Source: an uncultured Mollicutes bacterium (GTDB lineage: Bacteria; Bacillota_I; Bacilli_A; Acholeplasmatales; Anaeroplasmataceae). From it: a stretch of DNA of 33,292 nucleotides. The position numbers and the translations under genes are program-made. The stretch covers positions 1 to 33,292 of the forward strand of contig CAMWKG010000020.1 of the NCBI GenBank assembly GCA_947174785.1, given 5' to 3'. The notes below the pieces were generated by a model. That model saw only the letters and a program-made list of their open reading frames with translations. It was not told the DNA's origin and did no database searches. Shown piece after piece: positions 9,700-30,763 of this stretch (position 1 is the first letter of the stretch; each line of letters starts with the position of its first letter).

Positions 9700-11374
9700 T
9701 CGAATATTAACTGGATATGAAGATACAAAGCTTATGCATTATAAGGATTTACCTAGTACATTTCCAAACACGGTAAATTATGAGGATTTGCCAAATCAAG
9801 AAATGAGAGGTGTTCTTAAGGCAAATCGTTATGTTGATGGAAAACTTGTTCAAACCTATTCAGAGTTAGAAAACCATGTAGGAGTCATTGCTGCAACACG
9901 TCTTGGTAAGACCTCAGAGTATGTGATTCCTACCATTCTCTCCTTTGCTAAGCAGAAAACAAAAAAGAGAATGATTATCTCAGACCCTAAAGGAGAACTC
10001 TATAAAACCACGGCAGAAACATTACGTCAAGAAGGCTATAATGTAAAGCTATTTAATTTTAGAGATTATCAGCATTCTGAATATTGGAATCCACTTACTC
10101 CAATCTATCGCTTATATCAAAAAGCTTATAGTATAGAAGATGAGGTTGGAATCGTGGATACAGACCATGGTGTAAGAAATATTTTCCGTGGTATTATTTA
10201 TGAAAGCCAAGAGGAATTAGATGAAGCTATCGATAGAGCACAATCTATATTAATGGAGGAGGTAGGAAATGAAATCGATAAGATTGCTATGATTACAATT
10301 TCTACAGTCAATGGAAGAGACCCATACTGGGAGGATTCTGCTCGTATTCTTCTTACTGCGCTTATATGGGCAATGCTAGAGGATAGTCACCCAGAGGAAG
10401 GTGAAGAGGCTATTACAGAAGAAAAGTTTTCCTTTAGTACAGCTCTGACCATTATGGATAGTATGCGAGATGGGAATGGTAGTAATTATAATGATGATGG
10501 ATTTTTTACATCTAGAAAAGCCACCTCTAAAGCTTTGGCTCTAGCTAAAAACTGTATATTAGAAAATGCATCTACCACTAGAAAATGTATAATAAGCAGT
10601 TTCAACACTAAGATGTCTATTTATAAATCTAGTACGATTCGTTTGATTACTAGCTGTAATAGCTTTGAAATGAATGAACTGATAGATGAAGAAAAGCCTA
10701 TTGCCATTTTTATAGCCTATAAGGATGAACTTAAAGCGCATTATCAGGTAATTAGCTCCCTGGTCCAAAATGCTTATAGTTATTTAATTGAACATGCCAA
10801 TCAAAAGCCTTCTGGAAAGCTAGATGTTCCCTTTTATTTCATTCTTGATGAGTTTGGTAATTTTCCTAAAATTGTAGACTTTGAAACGGTAGTATCTGCG
10901 TGTGCAGGAAGAAACATTTGGTTTATTTTAATCCTACAATCTTATGCACAGCTGAATAATGTTTACGGACAGCATATTGCAGAAATTATTAGAGATAATT
11001 TAAATCTGCATGTGTTCATCGGAAGCAACAATCCTGAAACACTCAATGAATTTAGTAAGGAGTGTGGACAAGCAACACGTATTTCTCCGTTATGTGCCTT
11101 AAACGGAAATAAAGAAGAAATAGAAACCTATCAAATTGAAACGATACCTTTAATGCCTAAAAGTATTTTAGCTGGTTTAAAGGTGGGGGAATGTATCGTA
11201 ACAGAGGCAAACTGCGGGTATGTTTTGTATTCTAAATTAGAAAGATATTTCCAATGTGCAGAATTTAACCAACTTCCTCTAGCCGATGATAAAAAGTATA
11301 TTACTGCTATTAATCCATTAGACCGTAAATATGCTTATGTTCGTAAGCCTAAGAATAACGATTGGGATTTTTAA
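9686..11374 (+). CDS. VirD4/TraG-type coupling ATPase
   Basis: A protein of 562 residues. Walker A is AATRLGKT (69-76), matching the VirD4-style A-x-T-R-x-G-K pattern. SDPKGELY (about 97-104) is the conserved strand after it, and Walker B ILDEFGNFP starts at 386. The closing IILQSYAQL segment is typical of type IV coupling proteins, which dock the relaxosome and pump DNA into a type IV secretion channel. Unlike most VirD4/TraG proteins there is no N-terminal membrane segment, so it must be recruited to the membrane or act in the cytoplasm. Its start overlaps the previous gene by 14 bases. No relaxase, VirB4 or channel gene is in this window, so it may belong to a satellite or decayed element. 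Confidence 0.85.
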   Translation: MKITNRILTGYEDTKLMHYKDLPSTFPNTVNYEDLPNQEMRGVLKANRYVDGKLVQTYSELENHVGVIAATRLGKTSEYVIPTILSFAKQKTKKRMIISDPKGELYKTTAETLRQEGYNVKLFNFRDYQHSEYWNPLTPIYRLYQKAYSIEDEVGIVDTDHGVRNIFRGIIYESQEELDEAIDRAQSILMEEVGNEIDKIAMITISTVNGRDPYWEDSARILLTALIWAMLEDSHPEEGEEAITEEKFSFSTALTIMDSMRDGNGSNYNDDGFFTSRKATSKALALAKNCILENASTTRKCIISSFNTKMSIYKSSTIRLITSCNSFEMNELIDEEKPIAIFIAYKDELKAHYQVISSLVQNAYSYLIEHANQKPSGKLDVPFYFILDEFGNFPKIVDFETVVSACAGRNIWFILILQSYAQLNNVYGQHIAEIIRDNLNLHVFIGSNNPETLNEFSKECGQATRISPLCALNGNKEEIETYQIETIPLMPKSILAGLKVGECIVTEANCGYVLYSKLERYFQCAEFNQLPLADDKKYITAINPLDRKYAYVRKPKNNDWDF

Positions 11375-16305: not shown

Positions 16306-16337
16306 AAAAAAACTAAGCTGTTTATTTTACAGCTTAG
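16306..16337 (-). terminator. Intrinsic terminator of the activase operon
   Basis: On the minus strand CTAAGCTGT (16337-16329) pairs perfectly with ACAGCTTAG (16321-16313), followed by seven U (16312-16306). The upper stem contains the last codons and stop of the upstream gene. Confidence 0.88.
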
Positions 16338-17601
16338 CATCCTCGTTTTCTTCAATTTTTTCTCTAGCAATCGCTAGCATAAGTTTAATTCTGTTTTCTT
16401 GGTTTACCTTAGTAGCAGAAGGGTCATAGTCGATGGCTACGATGTTTGCGTCAGGATGAAGAGATTTAATCTTCTTCATAACACCTTTACCGCAAATATG
16501 GTTTGGTAAACATCCAAATGGTTGTGTACAAATGATATTGTCATAGCCTATTTCTACAAGCTCCATCATTTCAGCTGTTAGAAGCCAACCTTCACCCATC
16601 TTTGTTCCATGAGAAAGAATACCTTCAGATAAATCCTTTGTATGAGAGAAATATTTCATTGGCGTGAACTTAGTCTTTTTCATACTATTGATCATAAGTT
16701 TTTCTCTACGTCTTAAGTACCAAATAATAAATTTGGAGCCTAGTTTCTTTACTTTTCCGTGTCCATAGAATTCACTATCGTAAATAGAATTATATAGACA
16801 GTAGAGGATAAATCCATAAAGACCTGGAACCATAACCTCAGCATGCTCACTTACTAAGAAATCTTCTAGATGATTATTTCCTAAGGCTGCGTATTTCACA
16901 TAGATTTCACCAACAACACCAACCTTTGGTATGGCATGAGTCAAATCTAAGGATAATACATTAAAGCTTTTGGCAATAGCATTTAAATTCTTTTTTAAGG
17001 CTCTATAGGAAACACCCTTTTTCTTGCTAAATTGTTCTCCTATTTTTTCAACCCAGCTTAAGGCAAGTTCTTTTGCAGAACCAGCTTTAGTTTCATAAGA
17101 ACGAGTCTTATTAAACAGATACATAATTTCATCACCATAGGTCATTGCTGCTGCAATCTTTTTAATTAAAGAATAAGTAAGCTTTAAGCCACTATCCTTT
17201 TCTAGATTAGAAGCATTTAAAGAAACTACAGGAATAAAACCATAGCCTGCTTTATCTAATGCCTTTCTTAAAAGATGGATATAGTTTGAAGCTCTGCAGC
17301 CACCCCCTGTTTGGGTAATAAGAAGAACCAACTTATCATGATCTGTTCTATGATTTAAATTGTCAATAAATTGTCCGATAACAAGTAATGCGGGATAGCA
17401 GGTATCGTTATGCACGTACTTTAATCCTTCTGTGACAACATCTGGTCCTTCATTTCTCATAATCTCTACATTATACCCTGAAACAAGAAGCGCTTTTTCA
17501 AATAAAGCCATATGAAAAGGTAACATAGAAGGAATTAAAATGGTATGAGTTTTACGCATAGAAGCGACAAATCTTGGATATTCTTTAACTTCAGATTCCA
17601 T
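16327..17601 (-). CDS. 2-hydroxyacyl-CoA dehydratase-related protein, C-terminal subunit
   Basis: A protein of 424 residues matching the C-terminal part of the large (~1400-residue) 2-hydroxyacyl-CoA dehydratase/activase proteins of Firmicutes. It has conserved HNDTCYPALLVIGQF, TQTGGGCRASNY and TQPFGCLPNHICGKG segments whose cysteines could bind an iron-sulfur cluster. Here it is a separate polypeptide: its ATG overlaps the TAA of the upstream gene (TAATG) and a strong AAAGGAGG precedes it, so the two halves are co-translated. The physiological substrate of this large family is not established; a redox or radical-dehydratase activation role is family knowledge. An intrinsic terminator overlaps its end. 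Confidence 0.8.
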   Translation of the reverse strand: MESEVKEYPRFVASMRKTHTILIPSMLPFHMALFEKALLVSGYNVEIMRNEGPDVVTEGLKYVHNDTCYPALLVIGQFIDNLNHRTDHDKLVLLITQTGGGCRASNYIHLLRKALDKAGYGFIPVVSLNASNLEKDSGLKLTYSLIKKIAAAMTYGDEIMYLFNKTRSYETKAGSAKELALSWVEKIGEQFSKKKGVSYRALKKNLNAIAKSFNVLSLDLTHAIPKVGVVGEIYVKYAALGNNHLEDFLVSEHAEVMVPGLYGFILYCLYNSIYDSEFYGHGKVKKLGSKFIIWYLRRREKLMINSMKKTKFTPMKYFSHTKDLSEGILSHGTKMGEGWLLTAEMMELVEIGYDNIICTQPFGCLPNHICGKGVMKKIKSLHPDANIVAIDYDPSATKVNQENRIKLMLAIAREKIEENEDAKL

Positions 17602-20507
17602 TAGTTTTCCTCCTTTTGCTTTAGAGCTGCAAATAAGCTTCTTAAACGAATCTTAACTGCCCCTAAATTTGTGATTTCATCAATTTTAATTTGTGTGTAG
17701 ATTTTATTATGGTTTTCTAATATGGTTTTACACTCATCAGTTGTTACGGCATCTAGTCCGCACCCAAAGCTTACCAATTGAACTAAATTCATATCCTTTT
17801 GAGTTGTACAATATTTAGCAGCAGCGTAAAGTCTTGCATGGTAGGTCCACTGATTTAATACGCCAACCTTGAACTTTGGAACTAAATGAGAAATGGATTC
17901 TTCAGTTACAACTGCTACATCAAAGCCGTTAATTAATTTATCAATGCCATGATTTACCTGAGGGTCCACATGGTAAGGACGTCCTGCAAGAACGATAATC
18001 TGTTGATGATTAGCTCTAGCGCTTGCAATGATTTGATCTGCTTGTTTTCTTAAATCAGCTAAATATGCATCATATTCATCATAGGCATAAGAAGAAGCTT
18101 TATGAATTTCTTTTTTAGAAATATCGTAGTCTTTTAGATGCTCTCTCATTTTTTGTTCAAAAATATCTTTATCATGAATTCCAATAAACGGATGAATGAA
18201 TTTTATATCCTGAACATCCTTTACATTATTTTCAATAGTTTGTGGATAATAAGCAACAATAGGGCAATTAAAATGATTGTCTCCTTTTTTCTCATCAATA
18301 TTATAGCTCATACATGGATAGAAGATAGTATCAAAATCGTCTTGTTGTAATTTGGCAATATGCCCATGAACAAGCTTTGCAGGATAACACACAGTATCAG
18401 AAGGTATAGTATGTTGACCTAATGTATAAAGCTTTTCATTAGAAAAACCACTATTATAAACTTCAAAGCCTAAATGAGTAAAGAAGGTGTACCAGAATGG
18501 CCAAAGCTCATACATATTTAAAACGAGTGGAATTCCGAGCTTTCCTCTTTTACCAGGTACAGGCTTATAGCTCATCAGCTTTTGACGAATATATTCATAT
18601 AAATTTGAGTTATTATTTGTTATCTTTTTCGCTAGTGGCTTTTCACAGCGGTTTCCACTGATAAATTTATTTTGGTTACTGCCAAAGGTATTTAAAGAAA
18701 GAAGACAATTATTATTGCAACCTTTACAAGTGAAATTTTGAACCTTATGAAGAAAGCCTTTTAATTCTTCTTTAGTAATTGTAGTTGAATGTTCTAACTT
18801 TAAGGACTTTGCATAAAGGGCAGCACCATAAGCTCCCATAAGACCAGAAATATTAGGACAAACTACATTTAAATTTAATTCTTTTTCAAAGGCTCTTAAT
18901 ACAGCCTCATTGTGGAAGGTTCCACCTTGAACGACAATATTTTTTCCTAGCTGTGCACTTGTTGTTGCACGAATAACTTTATATAAAGCATTTTTAACAA
19001 CAGAAATAGATAATCCTGCTGAAATGTTTTCAATGGTGGCTCCATCCTTCTGTGCTTGTTTTACAGAAGAGTTCATAAACACGGTACATCTTGAGCCTAA
19101 ATCTACAGGCTTATCTGCCATTAATCCTAGCTTAGCGAAATCTTCAATCTTATAGCCTAATGCATTTGCGAAGGTTTGTAAAAAGGATCCACATCCAGAA
19201 GAACAAGCTTCATTTAAAAAAATGTTTGCGATGGCGTTGTTTTCAATTTTGAAGCATTTAATATCTTGACCGCCAATATCAATAATAAAATCTACATCCG
19301 GTTTAAATTTGGCTGCAGCACGGAAGTGTGCCATTGTTTCTACAAGACCAGCATCTAAATTAAAAGCATTTTTAGCAAGCTCTTCACCATAACCAGTAGA
19401 AGCACTACCAGCAATATTTAGGTTAGGATATTTATTATATAATTCAGTAAATATAGTTTGAATAACCTCAACAGGATTACCTTTATTAGGCTGATATTTT
19501 TCAAAACGAATCTGTTCATCTTCATCTATCAAAACAAATTTTAACGTAGTAGAACCACTATCAATACCTAAGTAAAGCTTTCCAGTATATCCATCTAGAG
19601 GAAGACTGTCAATATGCGCTTTAGCGTGACGATCTCTGAATTCTTTTAATTCCGTATCATTTGCAAATAAAGGCTGATTGTATGCATAAGTAGCAAGATT
19701 GATATAGGTTTGTAAATCCTTTAGTTTTTCCTTAATTTGAATCTTTTCTTTTGCACAAAGAGCCGCACCTATTGCAACATAATATAAAGAATTTTCAGGG
19801 CAGATGCCTTGAACATTTAGAGCAGAATCAAAGCTGGCCTTTAGTTCGGACAAGAAGGTTAATGGGCCTCCTAAATATGCAACATTACCTTTGATTTCTC
19901 TACCTTGAGCAAGACCACCAATCGTTTGATTGACTACAGCATTAAAGATAGAAGCCGCAATATCTGATTTGGATGCTCCTTGGTTTAATAAAGGCTGAAT
20001 ATCTGATTTAGCAAATACACCACAACGAGAAGCAATTGCATAAAGCTTTTGATGGTTTAAGGCTAAACCGTTGATTTCTGTAATATCAACATTTAAGAGG
20101 GTTGCCATTTGGTCGATGAAAGCCCCAGTACCTCCAGCACAAGAACCATTCATACGGACCTCCATTCCGTCTGTAAGGAATAGAATCTTGGCATCCTCAC
20201 CACCTAGTTCAATGATACAATCCGTTCCTGGAATTAGAGTGTTAGCAGCTATACGAGTGGCATATACTTCTTGTACAAAAGGAATTCCTACTCCTTCAGC
20301 AAGTCCCATGCCTGCAGAACCAGAGATAGCCAAATAGCAATCTTCCTCAATCCATTTCAAATCAATGAGTTCTTGAAGCTTTGCAATAATATTGTCTTTT
20401 ATATGAGAATAATGACGTTTATAGTCAGAATATAAGATTTGGTTATTTTCGTCTAATACAACGCATTTGATTGTTGTTGAGCCGACATCAAGTCCAATTT
20501 TTTTCAT
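17601..20507 (-). CDS. Acyl-CoA dehydratase activase, double ASKHA domain (BcrAD/HgdC type)
   Basis: A protein of 968 residues from ATG 20507, chosen because GGAGG lies 8 bases upstream and the promoter -35 (20565-20570) overlaps the longer frame. Two ASKHA ATPase domains occur in tandem: the first starts KKIGLDVGSTTIK, with NGSCAGGTGAF and SRCGVFAKSDIQ; the second starts YLGIDSGSTTLKF, with EACSSGCGSF and GSRCTVFMNSS. The Cys in each pair are the cluster ligands that in HgdC-type activases hold a [4Fe-4S] cluster at the dimer interface; here both sites are in one chain. A DUF2229-like region follows (LVLNMYELWPFWYTFF) with a Cys-rich CKGCNNNC linker. It probably uses ATP to deliver low-potential electrons. 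Translationally coupled to the next gene. Confidence 0.85.
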   Translation of the reverse strand: MKKIGLDVGSTTIKCVVLDENNQILYSDYKRHYSHIKDNIIAKLQELIDLKWIEEDCYLAISGSAGMGLAEGVGIPFVQEVYATRIAANTLIPGTDCIIELGGEDAKILFLTDGMEVRMNGSCAGGTGAFIDQMATLLNVDITEINGLALNHQKLYAIASRCGVFAKSDIQPLLNQGASKSDIAASIFNAVVNQTIGGLAQGREIKGNVAYLGGPLTFLSELKASFDSALNVQGICPENSLYYVAIGAALCAKEKIQIKEKLKDLQTYINLATYAYNQPLFANDTELKEFRDRHAKAHIDSLPLDGYTGKLYLGIDSGSTTLKFVLIDEDEQIRFEKYQPNKGNPVEVIQTIFTELYNKYPNLNIAGSASTGYGEELAKNAFNLDAGLVETMAHFRAAAKFKPDVDFIIDIGGQDIKCFKIENNAIANIFLNEACSSGCGSFLQTFANALGYKIEDFAKLGLMADKPVDLGSRCTVFMNSSVKQAQKDGATIENISAGLSISVVKNALYKVIRATTSAQLGKNIVVQGGTFHNEAVLRAFEKELNLNVVCPNISGLMGAYGAALYAKSLKLEHSTTITKEELKGFLHKVQNFTCKGCNNNCLLSLNTFGSNQNKFISGNRCEKPLAKKITNNNSNLYEYIRQKLMSYKPVPGKRGKLGIPLVLNMYELWPFWYTFFTHLGFEVYNSGFSNEKLYTLGQHTIPSDTVCYPAKLVHGHIAKLQQDDFDTIFYPCMSYNIDEKKGDNHFNCPIVAYYPQTIENNVKDVQDIKFIHPFIGIHDKDIFEQKMREHLKDYDISKKEIHKASSYAYDEYDAYLADLRKQADQIIASARANHQQIIVLAGRPYHVDPQVNHGIDKLINGFDVAVVTEESISHLVPKFKVGVLNQWTYHARLYAAAKYCTTQKDMNLVQLVSFGCGLDAVTTDECKTILENHNKIYTQIKIDEITNLGAVKIRLRSLFAALKQKEEN

Positions 20508-20541
20508 AAGGAACCTCCAGACTTTTCTTCGTACAAATTTT

Positions 20542-20570
20542 ATTATATTATAAATAATATAACAAGTCAA
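20542..20570 (-). promoter_or_regulatory. Promoter of the activase operon
   Basis: On the minus strand TTGACT (20570-20565), a 17-bp spacer and TATAAT (20547-20542). Transcription would start near 20535, giving a leader of about 28 bases before ATG 20507. Confidence 0.85.
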
Positions 20571-20745: not shown

Positions 20746-20790
20746 ATTTAAGAAGTGCAAAATTTTTTAGTATGTAAAGGATTTGATGAT

Positions 20791-22374
20791 ATGAAACGAT
20801 TAATTGCATTATGTTCAACCCTATGCTTAGGACTTCTTATAATTTTGACAAGCTGTAATAAGAAAAACAATTTACCTAGCATTGAAGGGTCTTTAGATAT
20901 TAAAATCTTTAAAACAGATTTAAGTGTAACAGCTAAATTTACAGATAGTGAAGAGCATGACTTGTATAATGATAATGTGAAGGCTTATGTTACAGTGAGT
21001 AGCACAGGAGAAGAAGCAAAAGAAATCTCCAGAAAAGATGTTACTATAACAAAACCTGCAACTGCAGAGACAAGCCTTAGTGGAAATAAGCTTGATTTTT
21101 CAAATTTAACTTCTGATACGCTTTATTCTGTAAAGCTAATTATTTCTTCTAAAGGAAATCAAAAGACTTTAGCCACTAAGGAGGTAACTACCTTAAGTAC
21201 AGGTGAAAGTGAAGATGATCCAATTTTAGTTGATAGCCTAGAAATGTTAGTTGGAATGAATAAGACCAAGGATGCATATTACAAGCTTACTACGGATATA
21301 GATTGTGGGGGATCTATTTCTTCAATCTTTAATTCTAGTAGTTCATTTGCAGGAAACTTTGATGGCGATGGTCACAAAATATACAATTTAAAATTTGATA
21401 GTAATCAGTATACTGGATTATTTGGACATATGGTTGGAGCAACCGTTAAGAATTTAACAATAGAAAATCCAACATATTCAGCAAGCCGTGGTAACACATA
21501 TTTGGGAGCTTTAGCTGGATATGCTAAGCATTGTATCATTTCAAATGTCACTGTAGTAAATCCTGATTTTTCCCACTCTGGACAATCAACAACCTATGGA
21601 TATATTGGAGGACTTGTTGGACAGGCAGAAAATTCTACAATAGAGAATTGTGCAGTTTTAGATTTGAAGCTAGATATTAAAGATGCAAGATTAAAAATGT
21701 ATGTTGGTGGTTTTGTAGGTGAAAATAAGAATTCTAAGATAACAGATTGTTATGTAACTGGAGATGTATCTGCAAATATCGCCTATACTTCTAATGAAAA
21801 TGGTTGTTTATTTTTAGGAGGCTTTAGTGGAGTTAATGACTCAACTTTAGGAATCCTAAACTGCTATGCAAAGGTAAATGTCAAGGTAACAGAACCAACT
21901 AGTGTATCTAACGAAGGTAGAAAAACATTTAGACTATGTGTAGGTGGATTTAATGGTGGAAATATCCATTATGCTTCTAGATTTGATAATTGTGCAAGTA
22001 TTGGAGATTTAGATATAGCAGTAATGTATGCTTGGTTTGCATATGTAGGTGGTTTTGCTGGATTTACAGATAACCAAAATATTTCTCTTTATGATAATTG
22101 TGTATATGTACCAGGTGAAAAGGGAATTGTTGCTAGTTTTGCTAAATTAGCAGATAATGCAGCTGAAGATGAAAAGATTGATCAAAAGGCATACATTTCT
22201 TTAGCAATTGGTATTATTGGTACTAAAAATACTGACACCATTCATGCGTTTGCTTATAGTGAAAAAATTGAAATAACAAATGAGCATGAGAATTTGACTC
22301 ATACACCTTATCGTATAAGTCAAGATTTAACAACATTTAGTCAAACTATTCGTGATGTTATTTTAAAGCCATAA
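20791..22374 (+). CDS. Surface lipoprotein with GLUG repeats
   Basis: A protein of 527 residues from ATG 20791 (AAAGG 10 bases upstream; the frame opens earlier but would include the -10 region). The N-terminus MKRLIALCSTLCLGLL...LTSC is a lipoprotein signal with lipobox L-T-S-C, so the product should be lipid-anchored outside the membrane. Residues about 25-140 look like a beta-sandwich/fibronectin-like domain. From about 190 GLUG-type motifs recur: TGLFGHMVGATVKNL, YIGGLVGQAENSTI, YVGGFVGENKNSKI, FLGGFSGVNDS, CVGGFNGGN, YVGGFAGFTD, each followed by a Cys-containing or Val-rich strand, which predicts a beta-helix. Such proteins are usually adhesins or matrix-binding surface proteins. It is a single-gene transcript with its own promoter and terminator. 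Confidence 0.85.
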   Translation: MKRLIALCSTLCLGLLIILTSCNKKNNLPSIEGSLDIKIFKTDLSVTAKFTDSEEHDLYNDNVKAYVTVSSTGEEAKEISRKDVTITKPATAETSLSGNKLDFSNLTSDTLYSVKLIISSKGNQKTLATKEVTTLSTGESEDDPILVDSLEMLVGMNKTKDAYYKLTTDIDCGGSISSIFNSSSSFAGNFDGDGHKIYNLKFDSNQYTGLFGHMVGATVKNLTIENPTYSASRGNTYLGALAGYAKHCIISNVTVVNPDFSHSGQSTTYGYIGGLVGQAENSTIENCAVLDLKLDIKDARLKMYVGGFVGENKNSKITDCYVTGDVSANIAYTSNENGCLFLGGFSGVNDSTLGILNCYAKVNVKVTEPTSVSNEGRKTFRLCVGGFNGGNIHYASRFDNCASIGDLDIAVMYAWFAYVGGFAGFTDNQNISLYDNCVYVPGEKGIVASFAKLADNAAEDEKIDQKAYISLAIGIIGTKNTDTIHAFAYSEKIEITNEHENLTHTPYRISQDLTTFSQTIRDVILKP

Positions 22375-22376
22375 TT

Positions 22377-22396
22377 GGAGCAGGTGCTCCTTTTTA
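22377..22396 (+). terminator. Short intrinsic terminator of the lipoprotein gene
   Basis: GGAGC-AGGT-GCTCC (22377-22390) followed by five T, starting two bases after the stop codon. The cysS start lies 24 bases beyond it. Confidence 0.7.
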
Positions 22397-22419
22397 TGCT
22401 AGATATAGGAGATGAAAAA

Positions 22420-23748
22420 ATGGGACTGAAGATATATAATTCTTTGTCAAATCAGTTAGAAGAATTTGTACCAATCCATCCAGGAAAAGTGAATATGTAT
22501 GTCTGCGGTCCGACTGTGTATAACCATATACATATAGGCAATGCACGACCAGTAGTCTTTTATGATATGATGAAGAATTATCTTACATATTTAGGCTATG
22601 AAGTACAATATGCTTCAAATATTACAGATGTTGATGATAAAATCATTAATCAAGCTATTGCTGAAAATAAAACAGAAAAAGAAGTTGCTAGCTTTTATGA
22701 GAAATGTTATTTCGAAGCAGTAGAAAAGCTAGGAAGTGCAAAACCCGATTTTATTCCCCATGCAACCGAATATATTGATGAGATGATATCCTTTATAGAA
22801 GAATTAATAAAAGAAGGATATGCTTATGAGGTAGACGGAGATGTATTCTTCCGTGTCAAAAAAATAGCAAATTACGGATGCTTATCCAATCAAGTGAGTG
22901 AGGACTTAGAACAGGGAGCCAGAATTTCCATAAATGAAAAGAAAGAAAATCCTCTAGATTTCTCCTTGTGGAAAAAGACAGAGGTGGGTATTAAATGGAA
23001 ATCTCCGTTTGGAGAGGGACGCCCAGGATGGCATACTGAATGTGTTGTGATGAATCACAAGCTATTTGGAAATCAAATTGATATTCATGGTGGTGGCATG
23101 GACTTAAAATTTCCACATCATGAAAATGAAATTGCTCAGAATGAAGCTTTATACCACAATTCTTTAGCAAAATACTGGATGCATGTAGGAAGATTAGAAT
23201 TTGAAGGACAAAAAATGTCTAAATCTTTACATAACGTTATTTATGTGAAGGATTTGGAGAATAATAAAAATGGAATGATTATGCGTATGGTTCTTGTATT
23301 TACGCCATATCGTAATAATTTCTCTTATTCTCAGGATATATTTGAGCAATATGAAAAAGTATTTGATAAATGGCAGCGTGCATATAAGCAAGGACTTTAT
23401 GAAATTCAGTTAGCTCAAAGTAAAGATGATTCTTTAGATGCATCAGATATGAAAGAATTTGAAGACTATATGAATCAGGATTTTAATGTACAAAATGTTA
23501 TGATGCTGATAGAAAGAATTACGAAGGAGTTAAATGTTTCTATTCGTAGTAAAAATACAGAATTAACTTCTAGAAAGTGGAATACCTTGCATAAGATTTT
23601 ACATATTCTAGGAATTAATTTATTTGTTAACCCAATGAATCCAACCCAGTTAGAAACGTATAATAAATGGAATGAAGCAAGACAAAATAAGGATTTTGAA
23701 TCAGCTGATACTTACCGTAAGCAACTTGTGGATTGGGGTATCCTATAA
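22420..23748 (+). CDS. cysS: Cysteinyl-tRNA synthetase
   Basis: A protein of 442 residues, slightly shorter than the usual ~465. The start at ATG 22420 has AGGAG 8 bases upstream; the frame opens earlier but that part includes the preceding terminator. Class I synthetase signatures: the zinc-binding CGPTVYNHIHIGNARP (Cys29, HIGN 38-41), GWHTECVVMN and HHENEIAQNEA for the other zinc ligands, and KMSKS in GQKMSKSLHN. The enzyme charges tRNA-Cys in the cytoplasm. Its TAA overlaps the ATG of mrnC (TAATG), the same pairing as in other Bacillota. No T-box is visible upstream. Confidence 0.97.
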   Translation: MGLKIYNSLSNQLEEFVPIHPGKVNMYVCGPTVYNHIHIGNARPVVFYDMMKNYLTYLGYEVQYASNITDVDDKIINQAIAENKTEKEVASFYEKCYFEAVEKLGSAKPDFIPHATEYIDEMISFIEELIKEGYAYEVDGDVFFRVKKIANYGCLSNQVSEDLEQGARISINEKKENPLDFSLWKKTEVGIKWKSPFGEGRPGWHTECVVMNHKLFGNQIDIHGGGMDLKFPHHENEIAQNEALYHNSLAKYWMHVGRLEFEGQKMSKSLHNVIYVKDLENNKNGMIMRMVLVFTPYRNNFSYSQDIFEQYEKVFDKWQRAYKQGLYEIQLAQSKDDSLDASDMKEFEDYMNQDFNVQNVMMLIERITKELNVSIRSKNTELTSRKWNTLHKILHILGINLFVNPMNPTQLETYNKWNEARQNKDFESADTYRKQLVDWGIL

Positions 23749-24125
23749 TGGAGGCTAATTTATATAATGGATTAACCTTAGCTTATATTGGTGATGCAAT
23801 TTATGAAATATATGTTAGGAAATATGCATTATCTTTAGGATTTACAAAGGTTAATGAGTTACATAAAAAAGTAACCTGTTATACAAATGCTTTAGCCCAA
23901 GCGAAGGTAATCCATCATTGTTTGGAACAAAATATTTTAACAGATACAGAGCTTAGCATATTCAAACGTGGAAGAAATTCGCATATTCATACCAAACGGA
24001 AAAATGTGGATTTGGCAAACTACCTAGATGCAACAGGGTTTGAAGCATTGTTAGGATATCTGTATTTGAAAAATGATACATTACGTTTAGAGGAGTTAAT
24101 TGATATTTCTCTAAAAATGAATTAG
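23748..24125 (+). CDS. mrnC: Mini-ribonuclease III
   Basis: A protein of 125 residues, close to the usual size, comprising only the RNase III catalytic domain without a dsRNA-binding domain. The signature LAYIGDAIYEIYVRKY contains the metal-binding Asp, and GRNSHIHTKRKNVD with ATGFEALLGYLYL gives the second acidic motif (Glu in FEALLGYLY). It processes the ends of 23S rRNA precursor. The start overlaps the cysS stop, favouring translational coupling; an upstream in-frame ATG at 23733 lies inside cysS. The next gene begins 10 bases later. Confidence 0.92.
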   Translation: MEANLYNGLTLAYIGDAIYEIYVRKYALSLGFTKVNELHKKVTCYTNALAQAKVIHHCLEQNILTDTELSIFKRGRNSHIHTKRKNVDLANYLDATGFEALLGYLYLKNDTLRLEELIDISLKMN

Positions 24126-24135
24126 GAGGTAGACC

Positions 24136-27100
24136 ATGGCAACTTTTGATGACAAGAGCATTTTCAGTAGACGTGAGGTTAAAGAGAAACCAAAGCCTAA
24201 GAAAGAAGAAACTGAAGAAATAGAAGATGAAGAAATTCTTGGCGAAGAAGTTCAAGAGGAAAATGAAGAGCAAGAGGATTCTTTAGAGACAATTGCAGAT
24301 GGAGTATATCCGAAAGAAGCAAAGGTCATTGGAGAAGAACTGATTGAAAGTGAAACTGTTCGAAAAGCACGTGAAAAACGTGAGAAAAAAGAAAAAAGAA
24401 TTGCTGAAAAACAACATGCTAAGATGGTAAAAAAACATCGTAAAGCGTTAAAAAAGAATCCAGAAAATATCAAAAGATATGACACAGATATGAATCAAGG
24501 TTTACCAGATGAGGTTGTTGAAAAGCGTATTTTGGATAACTTGGTCAATGCTACTAAGAAAGGTTCAACAAAGTCTAGAAAAAAGATCGTATTTTCTAAT
24601 ATCTTTACTTTCTTTAATATCTTGACTCTTTCTATAGCAATTTGGCTAATGACAGTACAGGCATGGACAGACTTAGTATTTTTAGTTATTGTTACAGCCA
24701 ATACGGTTATCGGTATTTACCAAGAGTTGAAAGCTAAAAATACAATTGATAAATTATCTTTATTATCTGCCCCTAGCGCTGTTGTAATCCGTAATGGTTC
24801 TAAGCAAGAAATTAGTGTTAGTGAGGTTGTTCTAGATGATTTACTTGTTTTAGAATCAGGAAATCAAATTTGTGCAGATAGTATTGTTGTAAGTGGAACA
24901 GTCGAAGTAAACGAATCCTTATTAACTGGTGAAAGTAACGCTATTATTAAAAAGGCAGGAGATTTACTATTTTCTGGTTCCTTTGTGGTTTCAGGAAATT
25001 GTCGTGCACGTGTTGATAAGGTAGGTAAGGATAATTATATTGAAAAGCTTTCTGATCAGGCAAAGCTTTATCGAAAACCAAATTCTGATTTGTTGAAATC
25101 TTTGAAATGGATTATCCGCGGTATGACACCAATGATTATTGTGACAGGTATAACTCTATTCCTATTACAATATTTTAATCCAAGCATAGCTTATGTAACA
25201 GCAGTTAGAAAAACTGCAGGTGCTATCATTGGTATGATTCCTTCAGGATTATGGTTGTTAACCTCTATTGCATTATTCGTAGGTGTTATTAAGCTATCTC
25301 AAAAGAATGTATTAGTTCAAGAGCTATACTGTATTGAGATGCTTGCAAGAATTAATGTGTTGTGCTTGGATAAGACAGGTACAATTACAGATGGCACAAT
25401 GAGTGTAAAAAATGTTATTGACTATAATAGTTTCTTTGGATTGACAACGAATAATATTGTTTCTGCAATGCTGAATGCATTAAACGAAAGCAATTTAACT
25501 GCAGTTGCCTTACAAAAGGAATTTGGCTTGAATAAGCGTATTAAACATACAGAAACAATTCCTTTTAGTTCTCAAAGAAAATTTAATGCAGTTACCTTTG
25601 ATAAAATGGGTACCTTTGCATTAGGTGCACCAGAGTATGTTTTAAAGGATCAATTTGGTCAGGTTCAAAAGGAAGTACAAAAAAATGCAGGAATGGGATA
25701 TCGTGTATTATGTTTAGCTCATTTTAATGGTACAATTCAAGATAATAAATTACCAAATACTGCTGCAGAGGTTGTATCCTTAATTTTAATTGAAGATAAC
25801 ATTAGACCTGATGCAATTAAAACAATTAACTATTTTAAAGAAAGTGGAGTATCTGTTCGTGTAATTTCTGGTGATGATCCAATCACTGTTTCTAAGATAT
25901 CTGAACGTGCAGGAATAGAAAATGCAAATGAATATATATCCTTAGAGGGGTTGTCTGATGCTGAGGTTGAACGTGCTGCATTAAAGTATACTGTATTTGG
26001 ACGTGTTTCTCCTTCTCAAAAGAAGCTTTTAGTTACAACATTAAAAAATGATGGTAAAAAGGTAGCTATGACTGGTGATGGTGTTAACGATATCCTAGCC
26101 TTAAGAGAAGCAGATTGTTCTATTGCGATTGCCTCAGGTAGTGAAGCTGCTCGTAATGTAAGTCACTTAGTTCTACTTGATTCTAACTTTGATTCTATGC
26201 CTAAGGTAGTATCTGAGGGTAGAAGAGTTATAAATAATGTAACCAATGTTGCATCTTTATTCTTAACCAAAACAATCTTCTCCTTATTGCTTGCTATACA
26301 AGCAATGATTAATGGTGGTGCATACCCAATTTCTACTAACCAATTAATTATGATTGATTTGTTTGCAATTGGTATACCTTCTTTCTTCCTAGCACTTGAA
26401 GCAAATAATAAAGAGGTAGATGGTAACTTCCTGGCGAATATCTTAAAAGGTGCATTGCCAGGAGCCCTAACGATTATGATTATATCGTTATTGATTTTTG
26501 GTTTGTCTGGCAATTTGGACTTAGATACAATTTCAATTCAAACGATTATAGGTATAGCAGCAACACATACCTGCTTAATGGTTCTATTTAAAGTATGTAA
26601 ACCATTTAATACCTTAAGAAGAACATTATGTACGTGCTGTTATGGTGCCTTCTTAATTATCGCCTTCTTGCTACCACAATTCTTAGAGTTTAGACCTTTA
26701 GTTGGATTCTCACATTATTACAATTCTTCTATAAAGGAAGATGTTTATACATCCTTCCCTGGAATTAGTAGAAGTAGTGCGAATACATATGTGTTTAATG
26801 GAAAATACCTAGATGGATTTATAAAGAATGCAAATGAACCTAATATAAGTATTGCCTGCGTACAAAAAGGAAATAAATTTTATTACACTTTGAATGGTAT
26901 TATTGCTTATAAAGAAGATGAAGAAACTAAAGAAGTCTTATATAGCGAAGAGGTAGTCATTCCTAAAATTTCCTTCCTATCCAATGGAAATATTGTCTTA
27001 GGTGGTAGTCGTATTTTCTATCAATATCAGGCCCCTGCTTCTACTTATATCGAAAATATAGATATTATGTATGAAAAAGGAATGGAAGAGAAATTTGATT

Positions 27101-28020
27101 TAGATGCCGATGGATATCTATTATATGATGGTAAGTATGTAATGCGTACTTTAACTGAAACTGATAGCTATTATAATTTTTCAAATAAGTATGGTGCAAA
27201 TCGTAAAAAGGATGTTAAGGTACGATTGATGCCAACTATCGAGATAGTAAATGATGAACTAACAGTTATTCCTAGAAATTCTAATAGAAATTCTACAGAT
27301 GTTGATACAAATAAAACATATAGAACAAACTTAACCTCTAGAGATAAGATAGAGCTTAAGATTGATGTTACAACAAAGGAATTATTAGTTAATGGAAAGA
27401 AATTAGCTCCAATCTTAGCTGATGGTTCTCAATCTGCAAATACATATAAAGTGGAATTGCCAACGATATCCTTTGATAAAGAAGGGTATGTGAACATTAA
27501 TGGTATTGATACGACTATTCCTGTATCTAATTTTGATGTTCAAGATATATTTGAAGAGTATAAGGATATATCTGTGAACGTTGTTCCTTATGATGCATCT
27601 TATTATATTACAAATAGTTCAACAACATCCATTCCTACAAATGGATATAATACATATGTTCGTTTATCTAACCCAAGTATTTGTCCAGATATCACTACTG
27701 CAGGAGCAGGAAATTGTGTAATTGATGGCTATTATACATCTTTCAAATATAATACTTCAGCATTTAAAACTGCACCTACATTAAAGGTAGATGGAGACTA
27801 CAATTTAGTTATTGGGGGAGTTACTACAGATTATCGTGTTTCTTCAGAAAGTATTTCAACGACTACTGGTGGTATTGTTAAGGAATTAACAATTCATGCA
27901 AAAATATTCTTATTAATGTTATGTTTACTTTCTATTCCACTAATGCGTTTATTACAAGCTATCGTGCCTTGGATTAAGCGACAGATTGCATTTGTGCAAA
28001 AGATATTATCTAAATTCTAA
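24136..28020 (+). CDS. Cation-translocating P-type ATPase with large exoplasmic domain
   Basis: A protein of 1294 residues; relatives of this CtpE-like group are usually near 800. AGGAGG precedes the ATG. Residues 1-140 are a charged Glu/Lys-rich cytoplasmic extension. Membrane pair 1-2 at about 150-200; actuator domain with TGES near 264; pair 3-4 with PSGLWLLTS near 373; phosphorylation motif DKTGT at about 412; SGDD near 580; GDGVND near 648; then five more membrane segments to about 856. After the ninth segment a beta-rich stretch of roughly 390 residues follows, then a last membrane segment (about 1255-1275). By topology that stretch lies outside the cell. Substrate unknown; calcium or another divalent cation is plausible from the CtpE likeness. 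It sits between mrnC and rlmB, which are neighbours in many Bacillota. Confidence 0.85.
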   Translation: MATFDDKSIFSRREVKEKPKPKKEETEEIEDEEILGEEVQEENEEQEDSLETIADGVYPKEAKVIGEELIESETVRKAREKREKKEKRIAEKQHAKMVKKHRKALKKNPENIKRYDTDMNQGLPDEVVEKRILDNLVNATKKGSTKSRKKIVFSNIFTFFNILTLSIAIWLMTVQAWTDLVFLVIVTANTVIGIYQELKAKNTIDKLSLLSAPSAVVIRNGSKQEISVSEVVLDDLLVLESGNQICADSIVVSGTVEVNESLLTGESNAIIKKAGDLLFSGSFVVSGNCRARVDKVGKDNYIEKLSDQAKLYRKPNSDLLKSLKWIIRGMTPMIIVTGITLFLLQYFNPSIAYVTAVRKTAGAIIGMIPSGLWLLTSIALFVGVIKLSQKNVLVQELYCIEMLARINVLCLDKTGTITDGTMSVKNVIDYNSFFGLTTNNIVSAMLNALNESNLTAVALQKEFGLNKRIKHTETIPFSSQRKFNAVTFDKMGTFALGAPEYVLKDQFGQVQKEVQKNAGMGYRVLCLAHFNGTIQDNKLPNTAAEVVSLILIEDNIRPDAIKTINYFKESGVSVRVISGDDPITVSKISERAGIENANEYISLEGLSDAEVERAALKYTVFGRVSPSQKKLLVTTLKNDGKKVAMTGDGVNDILALREADCSIAIASGSEAARNVSHLVLLDSNFDSMPKVVSEGRRVINNVTNVASLFLTKTIFSLLLAIQAMINGGAYPISTNQLIMIDLFAIGIPSFFLALEANNKEVDGNFLANILKGALPGALTIMIISLLIFGLSGNLDLDTISIQTIIGIAATHTCLMVLFKVCKPFNTLRRTLCTCCYGAFLIIAFLLPQFLEFRPLVGFSHYYNSSIKEDVYTSFPGISRSSANTYVFNGKYLDGFIKNANEPNISIACVQKGNKFYYTLNGIIAYKEDEETKEVLYSEEVVIPKISFLSNGNIVLGGSRIFYQYQAPASTYIENIDIMYEKGMEEKFDLDADGYLLYDGKYVMRTLTETDSYYNFSNKYGANRKKDVKVRLMPTIEIVNDELTVIPRNSNRNSTDVDTNKTYRTNLTSRDKIELKIDVTTKELLVNGKKLAPILADGSQSANTYKVELPTISFDKEGYVNINGIDTTIPVSNFDVQDIFEEYKDISVNVVPYDASYYITNSSTTSIPTNGYNTYVRLSNPSICPDITTAGAGNCVIDGYYTSFKYNTSAFKTAPTLKVDGDYNLVIGGVTTDYRVSSESISTTTGGIVKELTIHAKIFLLMLCLLSIPLMRLLQAIVPWIKRQIAFVQKILSKF

Positions 28021-28314: not shown

Positions 28315-29019
28315 ATGATTAAAATATATGGTAAAAACTGTATTCGTGAAGCGATACGTGCGAATGGAGAACTTCAAGAGGTATTTATCCAGGATGAAAT
28401 TTCAAAAAAGGATACAGCTTTTTTAGAATTATTAAAAGACAAAAAAATAAAATATAACCTTGTACCTAAACAGAAGATGGATACTATATTTGGGACAGGA
28501 CATCAGGGATATGGTGCTTATCATAAGGATTATACAATTTATGGGGAAGATATTATAGATTATATTACGCAAAGTCCAAAGAGGGTTTTACTTTTAGATG
28601 GCATTATGGATCCACATAATTTAGGAGCTATTTTAAGAAGTGTTGATGCCTTTGGATATGATGCAGTTGTTTTGCCTAAAAATAGAAGCTGTTCTATCAC
28701 AGAAACTGTAGCTCATGTTTCTACTGGAGCGATTGAGCATGTTAAAATAGCGTATGTAAACAGCTTATCTGCTTTTGTAGAACGACTAAAGAAGGCAGAC
28801 TATTGGATTTGTGGTACAGATGCTAAAGGGAATACTGATGTAGCTGAAGTAGATTTGAGTTTGAATCTTGCTGTGATTATTGGTTCAGAGGGATTTGGTA
28901 TGAGTAGAACTCTTGTAAAACAGACAGACTATTTAATTTCTATTCCTATGGTTGGTCATGTCAACAGTCTCAATGCATCCGTTAGTACAGGGATTATTTT
29001 ATATGCTTTAAAAAGATAA
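28315..29019 (+). CDS. rlmB: 23S rRNA 2'-O-methyltransferase, TrmH family
   Basis: A protein of 234 residues with an N-terminal substrate-binding domain (1-75) and a SPOUT methyltransferase domain. The three TrmH motifs are present: DGIMDPHNLGAILRS (motif 1), VIIGSEGFGMSR (motif 2) and IPMVGHVNSLNASVS (motif 3), which form the knotted SAM site. The likely target is the ribose of G2251 in 23S rRNA. The position after cysS/mrnC and before a sigH-like gene matches the yacO/rlmB locus of Bacilli. Confidence 0.9.
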   Translation: MIKIYGKNCIREAIRANGELQEVFIQDEISKKDTAFLELLKDKKIKYNLVPKQKMDTIFGTGHQGYGAYHKDYTIYGEDIIDYITQSPKRVLLLDGIMDPHNLGAILRSVDAFGYDAVVLPKNRSCSITETVAHVSTGAIEHVKIAYVNSLSAFVERLKKADYWICGTDAKGNTDVAEVDLSLNLAVIIGSEGFGMSRTLVKQTDYLISIPMVGHVNSLNASVSTGIILYALKR

Positions 29020-29025
29020 TAAGGA

Positions 29026-29574
29026 ATGTATCAACAAGCAAATGATAATGAGTTAATTTATTTAATTAAGGAAGGAAACTCTTTGGCCTATCAAGTTTTA
29101 TACAAGAAGTATGAGCATTTGATATATAAGATTTATAAGGCAAGCATAGAGTCTAGAGGAGTTATGCTTGCAGACTTTATGCAAGAGAGTTTTATGTGTT
29201 TAGAACGAGCAATTCATACGTATCAAGAGAAATATAGGTGTTCGTTTTATTCCTATTTCTTTCTGCTTTTACGCAGAAACAATTCAAAGCTTTTTAGAAC
29301 AGATAGTTTAAAATTGAAGGAAAGCTATACAGAATATAAGAAGGAAGGCTTTTTTGATTCAATGCAAACTAAATTTTCAACTCTTGAAATTGTGATTCGT
29401 GAGTTAAAGCTTGACAATGATTTAGATAAAGATATATTTTATTTATGTATTCTAAATGCAGTTAAGGTTACCCAAATTGCTCAAAAGCATGGTTTAAATT
29501 ATGGTATTGTTTATAATCAATATAAAATAATCAAACAGAAAGTTGAAAAAATATTGACTAATGTTAAGGTTTGA
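29026..29574 (+). CDS. Sigma-70-family factor, SigH-like
   Basis: A protein of 182 residues with a region-2-like N-terminus (NSLAYQVLYKKYEHLIYKI...MLADFMQESFMCLERAIHTY) and a region-4-like helix-turn-helix (VTQIAQKHGLNYGIVYNQYK). The position rlmB-(here)-rpmG-secE-nusG is that of sigH in Bacillus and Clostridium, so it is probably the SigH orthologue although its sequence is diverged. SigH serves stationary-phase, competence or sporulation regulons; which of these applies here is unknown. AAGG lies only one base before ATG 29026, an unusually short spacing that could limit translation. Confidence 0.75.
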   Translation: MYQQANDNELIYLIKEGNSLAYQVLYKKYEHLIYKIYKASIESRGVMLADFMQESFMCLERAIHTYQEKYRCSFYSYFFLLLRRNNSKLFRTDSLKLKESYTEYKKEGFFDSMQTKFSTLEIVIRELKLDNDLDKDIFYLCILNAVKVTQIAQKHGLNYGIVYNQYKIIKQKVEKILTNVKV

Positions 29575-29588
29575 TATAAAATATTATC

Positions 29589-29608
29589 AAGCCTTAAAAG
29601 GTTTTTTT
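29589..29608 (+). terminator. Terminator between the sigma factor and rpmG
   Basis: AAGCCT-TAAA-AGGTTT (29589-29604, one G-U pair) ends in a seven-T run (29602-29608), 15 bases after the stop of the sigma gene. Confidence 0.65.
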
Positions 29609-29634
29609 ATTTTGACGTTTGGAGGGATTAAGAC

Positions 29635-29784
29635 TTGCGTACAAAGGTTATACTTGTTTGCGAGGAATGTTTGTCAAGAAATTATACAACAACGAAGAAC
29701 CCTCAAAAAACAACAGAAAGAATTGAAGTAAAAAAATTTTGTAAAACTTGCAATAAGCATACAATACATAAGGAAACAAAATAA
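29635..29784 (+). CDS. rpmG: Ribosomal protein L33 (bL33), TTG start
   Basis: A protein of 49 residues starting at TTG 29635, with GGAGGG 8 bases upstream; there is no in-frame ATG nearby. The sequence begins [16 protein letters not shown] and ends HTIHKETK, typical of L33. Both zinc pairs are present (CEEC and CKTC), so this is the zinc-binding (C+) form. It precedes secE by 12 bases, the standard rpmG-secE-nusG arrangement. Confidence 0.95.
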
Positions 29785-29796
29785 GGAGAAAAAGAT

Positions 29797-30207
29797 ATGG
29801 CAGTTAAAGAAAAAACACAAGATAAGCCATCACGTATTTGGCAATATCTTAAGGAAACACACAAATGGGAAAACTATGTATTTTTAATTTTCTCAGTACT
29901 AGTTTTGGTATTAGGATGTCTAATACTAACAAATGCCTTGAGCGTTAGACAGGATTTCTGGTTAATTGGAAAGCATCCTAAGGCTTTTGGTGGTGTACTA
30001 GTTGGACTTGCTGGTGTATTTACGATTTATGGATTATATCCATTTTTCAAGCCTGCATTCCCAGAAATTAAGAAAGTAACTTGGTTAACCTTAGGAAAAT
30101 GGATTGGAAATTCAATTCGTGTATTATTGTTCTTAGTAATTTTTGCATTATTATTCTTCTTATATGATGCATTTATCACAGAAATTCTTGCAAGAATTTT
30201 CAAGTAG
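29797..30207 (+). CDS. secE: Preprotein translocase subunit SecE
   Basis: A protein of 136 residues, about twice the usual Gram-positive SecE. The conserved amphipathic hinge and core are FPEIKKVTWLTLGK (about 89-102) followed by a membrane helix. Two further membrane helices precede it (about 28-50 and 62-83), giving the three-helix form known from Proteobacteria. It stabilises SecY in the translocon. AAGGAG precedes the ATG. Confidence 0.92.
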   Translation: MAVKEKTQDKPSRIWQYLKETHKWENYVFLIFSVLVLVLGCLILTNALSVRQDFWLIGKHPKAFGGVLVGLAGVFTIYGLYPFFKPAFPEIKKVTWLTLGKWIGNSIRVLLFLVIFALLFFLYDAFITEILARIFK

Positions 30208-30217
30208 GAGCTAGAAT

Positions 30218-30763
30218 ATGAGAAGATGGTATATTGTAGGAACCTATTCTGGCTATGAAAACGCAGTTAAGCAGGACTTAGAAAAGCGTAAGGAAACCAT
30301 GAACATGCAAGATAAAATTTATCAAGTTATGGTTCCTGAGGAGACTGTAGAAGTAACAGATAAAAAGGGTAAGAAAAAACAAAAGGTAACTAAGCTATTC
30401 CCTGGATATGTTTTCGTTGAAATGGAAGTTGAAGGCGAAATGGATGAAAAGGCTTGGTTTATGATTCGTAACACACCAAAGGTAACAGGATTTTTAGGTT
30501 CTAGTGGTGGTGGTACAAAACCAGTTCCAGTACCAGTAGATGAAATGAATCGTATCTTAATTTCTTTAGGTATGGTTGAAAAATCAGTTATGGACTTCAA
30601 GGTTGGCGATCATATTGAAATCGTATCAGGTCCATTTGAAGGTAGAACTTTTGATATTGCTTCTGTAAATTTAGATGCAGAGGAAGTAATTGTATTGGTA
30701 GAAATGTTTGGTGGAAGATCAACTCAGATGACTTTCAGCTTCAAACAAATTCGCAAAATCTAA
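30218..30763 (+). CDS. nusG: Transcription termination/antitermination factor NusG
   Basis: A protein of 181 residues. The NGN domain (WYIVGTYSGYENAVKQ ... KLFPGYVFVEME ... WFMIRNTPKVTGFLG) is followed by a KOW domain (KVGDHIEIVSGPFEGRTFDI). It binds RNA polymerase and links it to the ribosome or to Rho. It follows secE by 10 bases with TAGGAG upstream. Confidence 0.96.
   Translation: MRRWYIVGTYSGYENAVKQDLEKRKETMNMQDKIYQVMVPEETVEVTDKKGKKKQKVTKLFPGYVFVEMEVEGEMDEKAWFMIRNTPKVTGFLGSSGGGTKPVPVPVDEMNRILISLGMVEKSVMDFKVGDHIEIVSGPFEGRTFDIASVNLDAEEVIVLVEMFGGRSTQMTFSFKQIRKI

Follow-up and report, generated by a model that had tools for sequence, protein, structure and literature searches.

A beta-hairpin repeat domain between the last two membrane helices of a P-type ATPase of Anaeroplasmataceae, a possible extracellular arm

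Ectodomains associated on the outside with the C-terminal membrane helices of a P-type ATPase are known from PMCA and its partner neuroplastin, and from the beta subunit of Na,K-ATPase. Neuroplastin is described as packing on helix M10 of PMCA2 and contacting its outside M7-M8 loop (PMC12488499), and has been termed obligatory for delivery to the cell surface (PMC12368035); the beta subunit tunes Na,K-ATPase, whose helices M7-M10 are reported to move as a unit (PMC4742777). Among bacterial P-type ATPases with ten predicted helices, the calcium uptake pump CtpE of Mycobacterium smegmatis (family 23 of the P-type ATPases; 791 residues) carries the motif VPEGL in M4 (PMC5615198), and PEGL is also reported in CtpE of M. 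tuberculosis (PMC3573892). Here we describe a P-type ATPase gene in a 33,292-nucleotide stretch of DNA from an uncultured Mollicutes bacterium of the Anaeroplasmataceae (contig CAMWKG010000020.1, positions 1 to 33,292; hereafter the window). Its product carries a long beta-repeat domain in the loop between membrane helices M9 and M10 (coordinates in Table 1). No such P-type ATPase insert was found in the titles and abstracts of the open-access papers searched.

The 1294-residue protein is a member of the P-type ATPase superfamily. The catalytic motifs TGES (residue 264), DKTGT (412) and GDGVND (647) are all present, and the Pfam domains E1-E2_ATPase and Hydrolase as well as the NCBIfam model TIGR01494 are matched above their cut-offs. 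An earlier reading of the window by a model that saw only its letters and open reading frames (the sequence-only reading) had described the ATPase core as complete, and in this it was right. Residues 103-1294 were modelled with AlphaFold on a 34-row alignment (protein numbering is model number plus 102). The model has ten membrane helices, with a predicted local distance difference test (pLDDT) score of 78.5 and a predicted template modelling (pTM) score of 0.53. Together with hydropathy, which locates M1 to M10, it places cytoplasmic loops after M2 and M4, which is the ten-helix, type II topology. Its match to solved P-type pumps extends from the N-terminus through to M10, with a Z-score (Z) of 31.0 and a root-mean-square deviation (rmsd) of 5.9 over 754 residues for Pma1, and Z 30.0 and rmsd 6.1 over 734 residues for LMCA1.

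Between M9 and M10 the same model has a strand-rich stretch (model residues 759-1146). The sequence-only reading had proposed a ~390-residue outside domain before the last helix, at 26700-27900, and had called for structure prediction; hydropathy and AlphaFold agree with it in both position and size, and the strings that it quoted, GYVNINGIDTTI and GDYNLVIGGVTTDYRV, lie at residues 1117 and 1220. Its remark that the proteins of related pumps stop shortly after these helices has to be corrected: those relatives too possess M10, usually ~0-20 residues past M9. The M9-M10 loop is on the outside because the ATP-handling domains are inside, and the loop charges agree: the M8-M9 loop carries +2, the C-terminal tail +4 and the domain -11, with 50 acidic residues. 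The extracellular position follows from P-type topology, from this charge pattern and from the sharing of units with proteins that bear lipoprotein signals or amidase domains. A cytoplasmic domain or a C-terminal tail was rejected, as M10 lies downstream. An assembly artefact was likewise rejected, the same continuous frame being found in many independent assemblies, including that of the isolate Anaeroplasma bactoclasticum ATCC 27112.

The domain is built of tandem 'GxYxIxGxxT' hairpin units. In an alignment of 26 family members, among which its length varies from 299 to 503 residues, segments of the forms 'YVIDGxxT', 'LxINGxxTDY' and 'xLGGYxT' recur. A regular expression, composed after inspection of the sequences, gave six overlapping matches in the window domain against a shuffle mean of 0.26, and none of 500 shuffles scored as high. 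A profile of the 75-residue C-terminal unit (22 members) matched the N-terminal domain parts of relatives with expectation values (E) down to 8.6e-14, the best E among 20 shuffles per target being 0.56. The N-terminal part of the window's own domain scores weakly with this profile (0.049), and the case for internal repetition therefore rests on the relatives. The recurring strand-turn units noticed in the sequence-only reading are thereby supported.

A model of the domain alone (33 rows; pLDDT 79.7, pTM 0.70) shows short groups of strands in succession. From the structure alignments, L112, which lacks the ATPase core, was omitted in A4 and A5, and L113, which lacks the insert, in A5. The top Foldseek matches were beta-propellers, but weak ones (best E 3e-3, TM-scores ~0.1), with none below E 0.001 in PDB. 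The best VIA match of the domain covered only 56 residues (Z 2.9, rmsd 3.1), none reaching a Z of at least 5, and BFVD gave a single match (4.3e-4, TM ~0.09); none of these was accepted as a relationship. PDB profile matches were also weak (a designed propeller at E 0.0018, antifreeze proteins at 0.012), and searches of Pfam, NCBIfam and PHROG with the window domain gave no match of weight. From these results we infer that the hairpins stand in a row and do not close into a propeller.

The distribution of the domain was analyzed in a genome collection whose own labels for genera and families (g1, f1, etc.) are kept here, f1 being the family of the window; the genomes counted are related, and the tallies are not independent events. 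The domain profile matched end to end in 47 of the 55 f1 genomes, among them that of the type strain A. bactoclasticum ATCC 27112. The other eight comprise a partial match (G111), a contig edge (G015), a match to M10 only (G016, genus g7), a spurious match lying in an ATP-binding cassette transporter (G107), and four genomes with no match (G002, G024, G014 and G030), the pump gene of G024 being interrupted by a contig end. By name, the matches belong to Anaeroplasmataceae / Acholeplasmatales, with some Erysipelotrichaceae, Bacillales, Mollicutes or uncultured bacterium. In 395 genomes of the class, a domain profile matched from end to end in f1 alone, in 18 of the 20 f1 genomes covered. Nine matches at order level took in just the M10 end, and another five, in f7 and f19, were partial.

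The insert is not universal among related pumps: in the sampled insert-free orthologues M9 is mostly followed closely by M10. The pump of genus g7, within f1, is complete at 901 residues and has no insert. Sorting by length gave 47 short and 47 long proteins after repeated C-terminal parts were dropped, the short class still including the paralogues L002-L004 and the long class L072. Two long frames were rejected as insert carriers: no insert was found in that of G066, and that of G103 (L072) is long through an extension after M10. This extension, in a small genome of genus g23, comprises ~250 residues, the final part of which is hydrophobic.

The order cysS, mini-RNase III gene, ATPase gene, rlmB-like gene is common to insert-bearing f1 loci and to the insert-free L113, L131, L128 and L133. 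The insert-free orthologues of the same taxonomic order (for example L113/L070 of g7; L131, L128 and L133 of other families) resemble the window pump in gene neighbours, helix motifs and core (~59-61% identity), and differ from it in having nothing inserted between M9 and M10. Judging by these sequences, the domain appears to have been gained in place by an orthologous housekeeping pump gene. At most loci of the family, cysS is preceded by a GLUG-motif lipoprotein gene; since insert-free relatives also have this gene close to the locus, it was rejected as an insert-specific partner.

The same loop carries inserts outside f1. A pump-core search matched 80 of 149 class genomes at 1e-120. In family f19, G252 has a 1184-residue frame with an M9-M10 insert, as do three g141 genomes; these inserts comprise 262-272 residues with 'GYWxINGxxTxIKA' units and were found in 4 of the 25 matching f19 genomes (28 searched), most of the others having frames of normal length and a few being fragments. 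In family f9, G204 has an 88-residue insert of two units. The f19 ATPase inserts went unreported by the domain profile (A3) and came to light through the pump-core search; inserts elsewhere may therefore have been missed, short ones above all, as loci were retrieved only for the best 30 matches. Compared as profiles, the f1 and f19 inserts gave a probability of 94.8 (E 5e-8, a single comparison) and the f19 and f9 inserts 80.5 (E 1.3e-5). On a core tree of 55 rows, selected from those collected and built by a quick method with Shimodaira-Hasegawa-like approximate likelihood ratio test support only, the distribution of the insert requires three changes, each imposed by branches with good support. 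Three gains at the M9-M10 loop are the simplest reading, though repeated loss is also possible. As to membership of a known family, the f19 insert L159 reached 28.9 bits against DUF4988 (PF16378), just below the cut-off of 30, whereas the window domain matched nothing there. Within the literature searched, DUF4988 came up in one paper, on an unrelated subject. Searches for a phage or plasmid origin, with the window domain and L159 as queries, returned no match.

Units of the pump-domain type were also found in secreted and surface-type proteins of related bacteria. The partial f19 matches included secreted amidase-like proteins with an 'ISxDGYYVLNGxxT' hairpin, and lipobox-bearing g4 proteins have hairpin units carrying 'HTPVITIGENGNWYIDGVDT'. 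In the window's genus, a 12,480-residue open frame (G005, contig 4, ~58000-76000; L176, L197), of which 1,215 residues were inspected, contains there stretches resembling leucine-rich repeats (LRR) and GxWxIxGxxT units. The likeness of the amidase-like proteins and lipoproteins ('GxWxIDGxDT' units) to the pump domain is one of the short hairpin unit; unlike the pump, they are soluble or lipid-anchored.

We consider it plausible, with a probability of roughly 0.45, that the domain serves as an extracellular binding or anchoring arm. On this reading a housekeeping P-type ATPase acquired, in place, an M9-M10 domain in which short beta-hairpins, roughly 8-10 of them, follow the pattern 'G-x-[YW]-x-[IL]-[DN]-G-x-x-T', a repeat unit that related bacteria deploy in secreted and surface proteins as well. 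Because such units are used extracellularly in the same bacteria, a grip on something outside is the simplest effect of adding them. The arm would link the pump to a target on the cell surface or further out, for example a glycan there or a second surface protein with such repeats; it would neither coordinate the ion nor grip peptidoglycan, and the core would operate as in the insert-free orthologues. Binding of a partner, also suggested in the sequence-only reading, is possible. Several points weigh against such an arm. The window domain belongs to no Pfam family, the carbohydrate-module matches of the f19 inserts are below cut-off, the resemblance between f1 and f19 inserts might be convergence on a simple hairpin motif, and the pTM of 0.53 leaves the placement of the domain relative to the pump uncertain. 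The domain might also regulate the pump cycle.

When the window was compared pairwise with three close relatives, the ratio of nonsynonymous to synonymous substitution rates (dN/dS) came to 0.116-0.125 for the domain, against 0.013-0.027 for the core. Purifying selection acts on the domain as well, but 4-10 times less strongly than on the core. Its fast change, variable length and use of a common surface repeat would suit a decorative or shielding domain with no specific ligand, kept for masking the pump from phage, antibodies or proteases. We regard this as unlikely, as a dN/dS of ~0.12 and near-universal retention in the family argue for a specific constraint.

Attachment to the cell wall, which the sequence-only reading had offered as one role, was examined through the wall genes of the carriers. 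Transpeptidase (PF00905) was found in 21 and FtsW/RodA (PF01098) in 20 of the 55 f1 genomes. Such a mixture within the family is already known, and the counts are consistent with the report that 40-60% of Anaeroplasmataceae genomes carry peptidoglycan genes (PMC10868615). A peptidoglycan-binding domain fixing the pump to the wall would fit the transpeptidases and FtsW/RodA of the window's genus, and similar units do occur within amidase-like proteins. However, transpeptidase was found in only 18 of the 47 full-domain genomes and was not detectable in 29, 16 of which are at least 90% complete, and this excludes peptidoglycan as a general ligand. Transpeptidases were not detected in g2, g4, g5 or A. 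bactoclasticum (G025, taken as L096), and the walled genus g7 lacks the domain. Among the f19 carriers, G252 has no transpeptidase, while the three of g141 have two each. Fixing to the wall is thus very improbable as the role of the domain, and the earlier suggestion is not supported as a general one, though the window's own genus has transpeptidases.

A second suggestion had been that the domain binds the transported ion. The calcium ligands of SERCA, which we take to be Glu309 in M4 and Asn796 and Asp800 in M6, were located through the LMCA1 alignment. At the M4 position of the calcium-pump Glu, 55 aligned proteins have Ser (35), Ala (19) or Leu (1) and never Glu; the M5 Lys is invariant (55 of 55), the position of Asn796 is Asp in 28, Glu in 26 and Asn in one, and at that of Asp800 a hydrophobic residue (Ile, Val or Leu) occurs in 54. 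The window pump, with Ser370 for Glu309 and Ile745 for Asp800, does not have the SERCA-type (P2A) ligands, and with these M4 and M6 residues calcium should not be assumed to be the substrate. The label 'CtpE-like' given in the sequence-only reading could not be secured either: the window has MIPSGL in place of VPEGL, its Glu being replaced by Ser, and since the M4 and M6 positions differ and VPEGL is missing we do not class the pump as CtpE. The comparison used the published description of the M. smegmatis protein, the cited passages of which mention no large M9-M10 domain (PMC5615198). A domain capturing the transported cation outside would accord with the net charge of -11 and the 50 acidic residues, but few acidic residues stand among its invariant or near-invariant columns. 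A role in transport is disfavoured because insert-free orthologues exist, their helix motifs unchanged, and because the domain varies in length and evolves fast; ion capture is accordingly the least probable of the roles considered.

Table 1. Features of the ATPase locus; positions are those of the window, residues those of the protein
Feature	Position	Strand	Basis and remarks
GLUG-motif lipoprotein gene	20755-22374	+	Precedes cysS at most loci of the family
cysS and mini-RNase III gene	22375..24125	+	Upstream neighbours; synteny, Ribonuclease_3; kept with and without insert
P-type ATPase open reading frame	24136..28020	+	Single uninterrupted frame, 1294 residues; ten membrane helices; hydropathy, Pfam, NCBIfam, AlphaFold model, fold match
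N-terminal tail			~Residues 1-110; charged, variable; core begins after tail
M9	26620..26694	+	~Residues 829-853 (hydropathy); model helix 724-743 = residues 826-845
Beta-repeat domain in M9-M10 loop	26701..27885	+	~Residues 856-1250, ~395 residues; hydropathy, alignment, models
C-terminal two-hairpin unit (NCVIDGYYT ... NLVIGGVTTDY)	27664..27888, ends approximate	+	Best conserved domain part; its 75 residues gave the unit profile
M10	27895..27975	+	~Residues 1254-1280 (hydropathy; model 1151-1191); followed by positively charged cytoplasmic tail
SpoU-type methylase (rlmB-like), sigma-70 region 2 protein, SecE, NusG	28315..30763	+	Downstream neighbours; synteny; Pfam for the first three

The genes that we take to be cysS and NusG were so named from their sequence. 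Elsewhere in the window, the protein encoded at positions 2260-6165 (+) has 1302 residues, a TIR_2 domain at its N-terminus and LRR_5 repeats of the BspA type; downstream of it lies a type IV coupling protein (9686-11371); the first ~15 kb resemble a mobile element. Proteins of the BcrAD_BadFG / DUF2229 coenzyme A-enzyme-activase type are encoded at 16327-20570 (-).

The outside loops are short in the insert-free relatives. A large repeat domain that nearly the whole family has kept, and whose counterparts at this loop in two further families seem to be parallel acquisitions, marks M9-M10 as an apparently favoured position for grafting on a function outside the cell while leaving the pump intact. 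With members that have and lack wall genes, and orthologues that have and lack the domain, the family offers a natural comparison of what an ectodomain does for a P-type pump.

By analogy with the described systems, the main rival to an external arm is an accessory-subunit-like role. The domain would then be a built-in regulatory or chaperone ectodomain that sits on M7-M10 as a cap or brace and adjusts the pump's cycling, its stability or its delivery to the membrane, as the Na,K-ATPase beta subunit or the neuroplastin of PMCA do, but within one chain. It does join M9 and M10, and the contacts of neuroplastin with M10 and the M7-M8 loop, its part in surface delivery and the tuning by the beta subunit all speak for such a role. 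However, insert-free orthologues occur in the same family and taxonomic order, fast evolution and changes in length speak against a tight interface, the tuning of Na,K-ATPase is reported to map to the transmembrane part of beta (PMC4742777), and transport by PMCA2 is described as independent of neuroplastin (PMC12488499). We therefore hold this role to be improbable, though less so than wall or ion binding. A broader proposal is no more than speculative: the M9-M10 loop might be a hot spot that has received a mobile surface-repeat cassette on at least three occasions. The resulting single-chain pumps would have their own accessory ectodomain, a bacterial in cis counterpart of the beta subunit or neuroplastin that controls where the pump is or how it cycles. 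Neuroplastin and the beta subunit are separate subunits with Ig or beta-subunit folds, whereas the window pump has its ectodomain in one chain, as a series of hairpin repeats.

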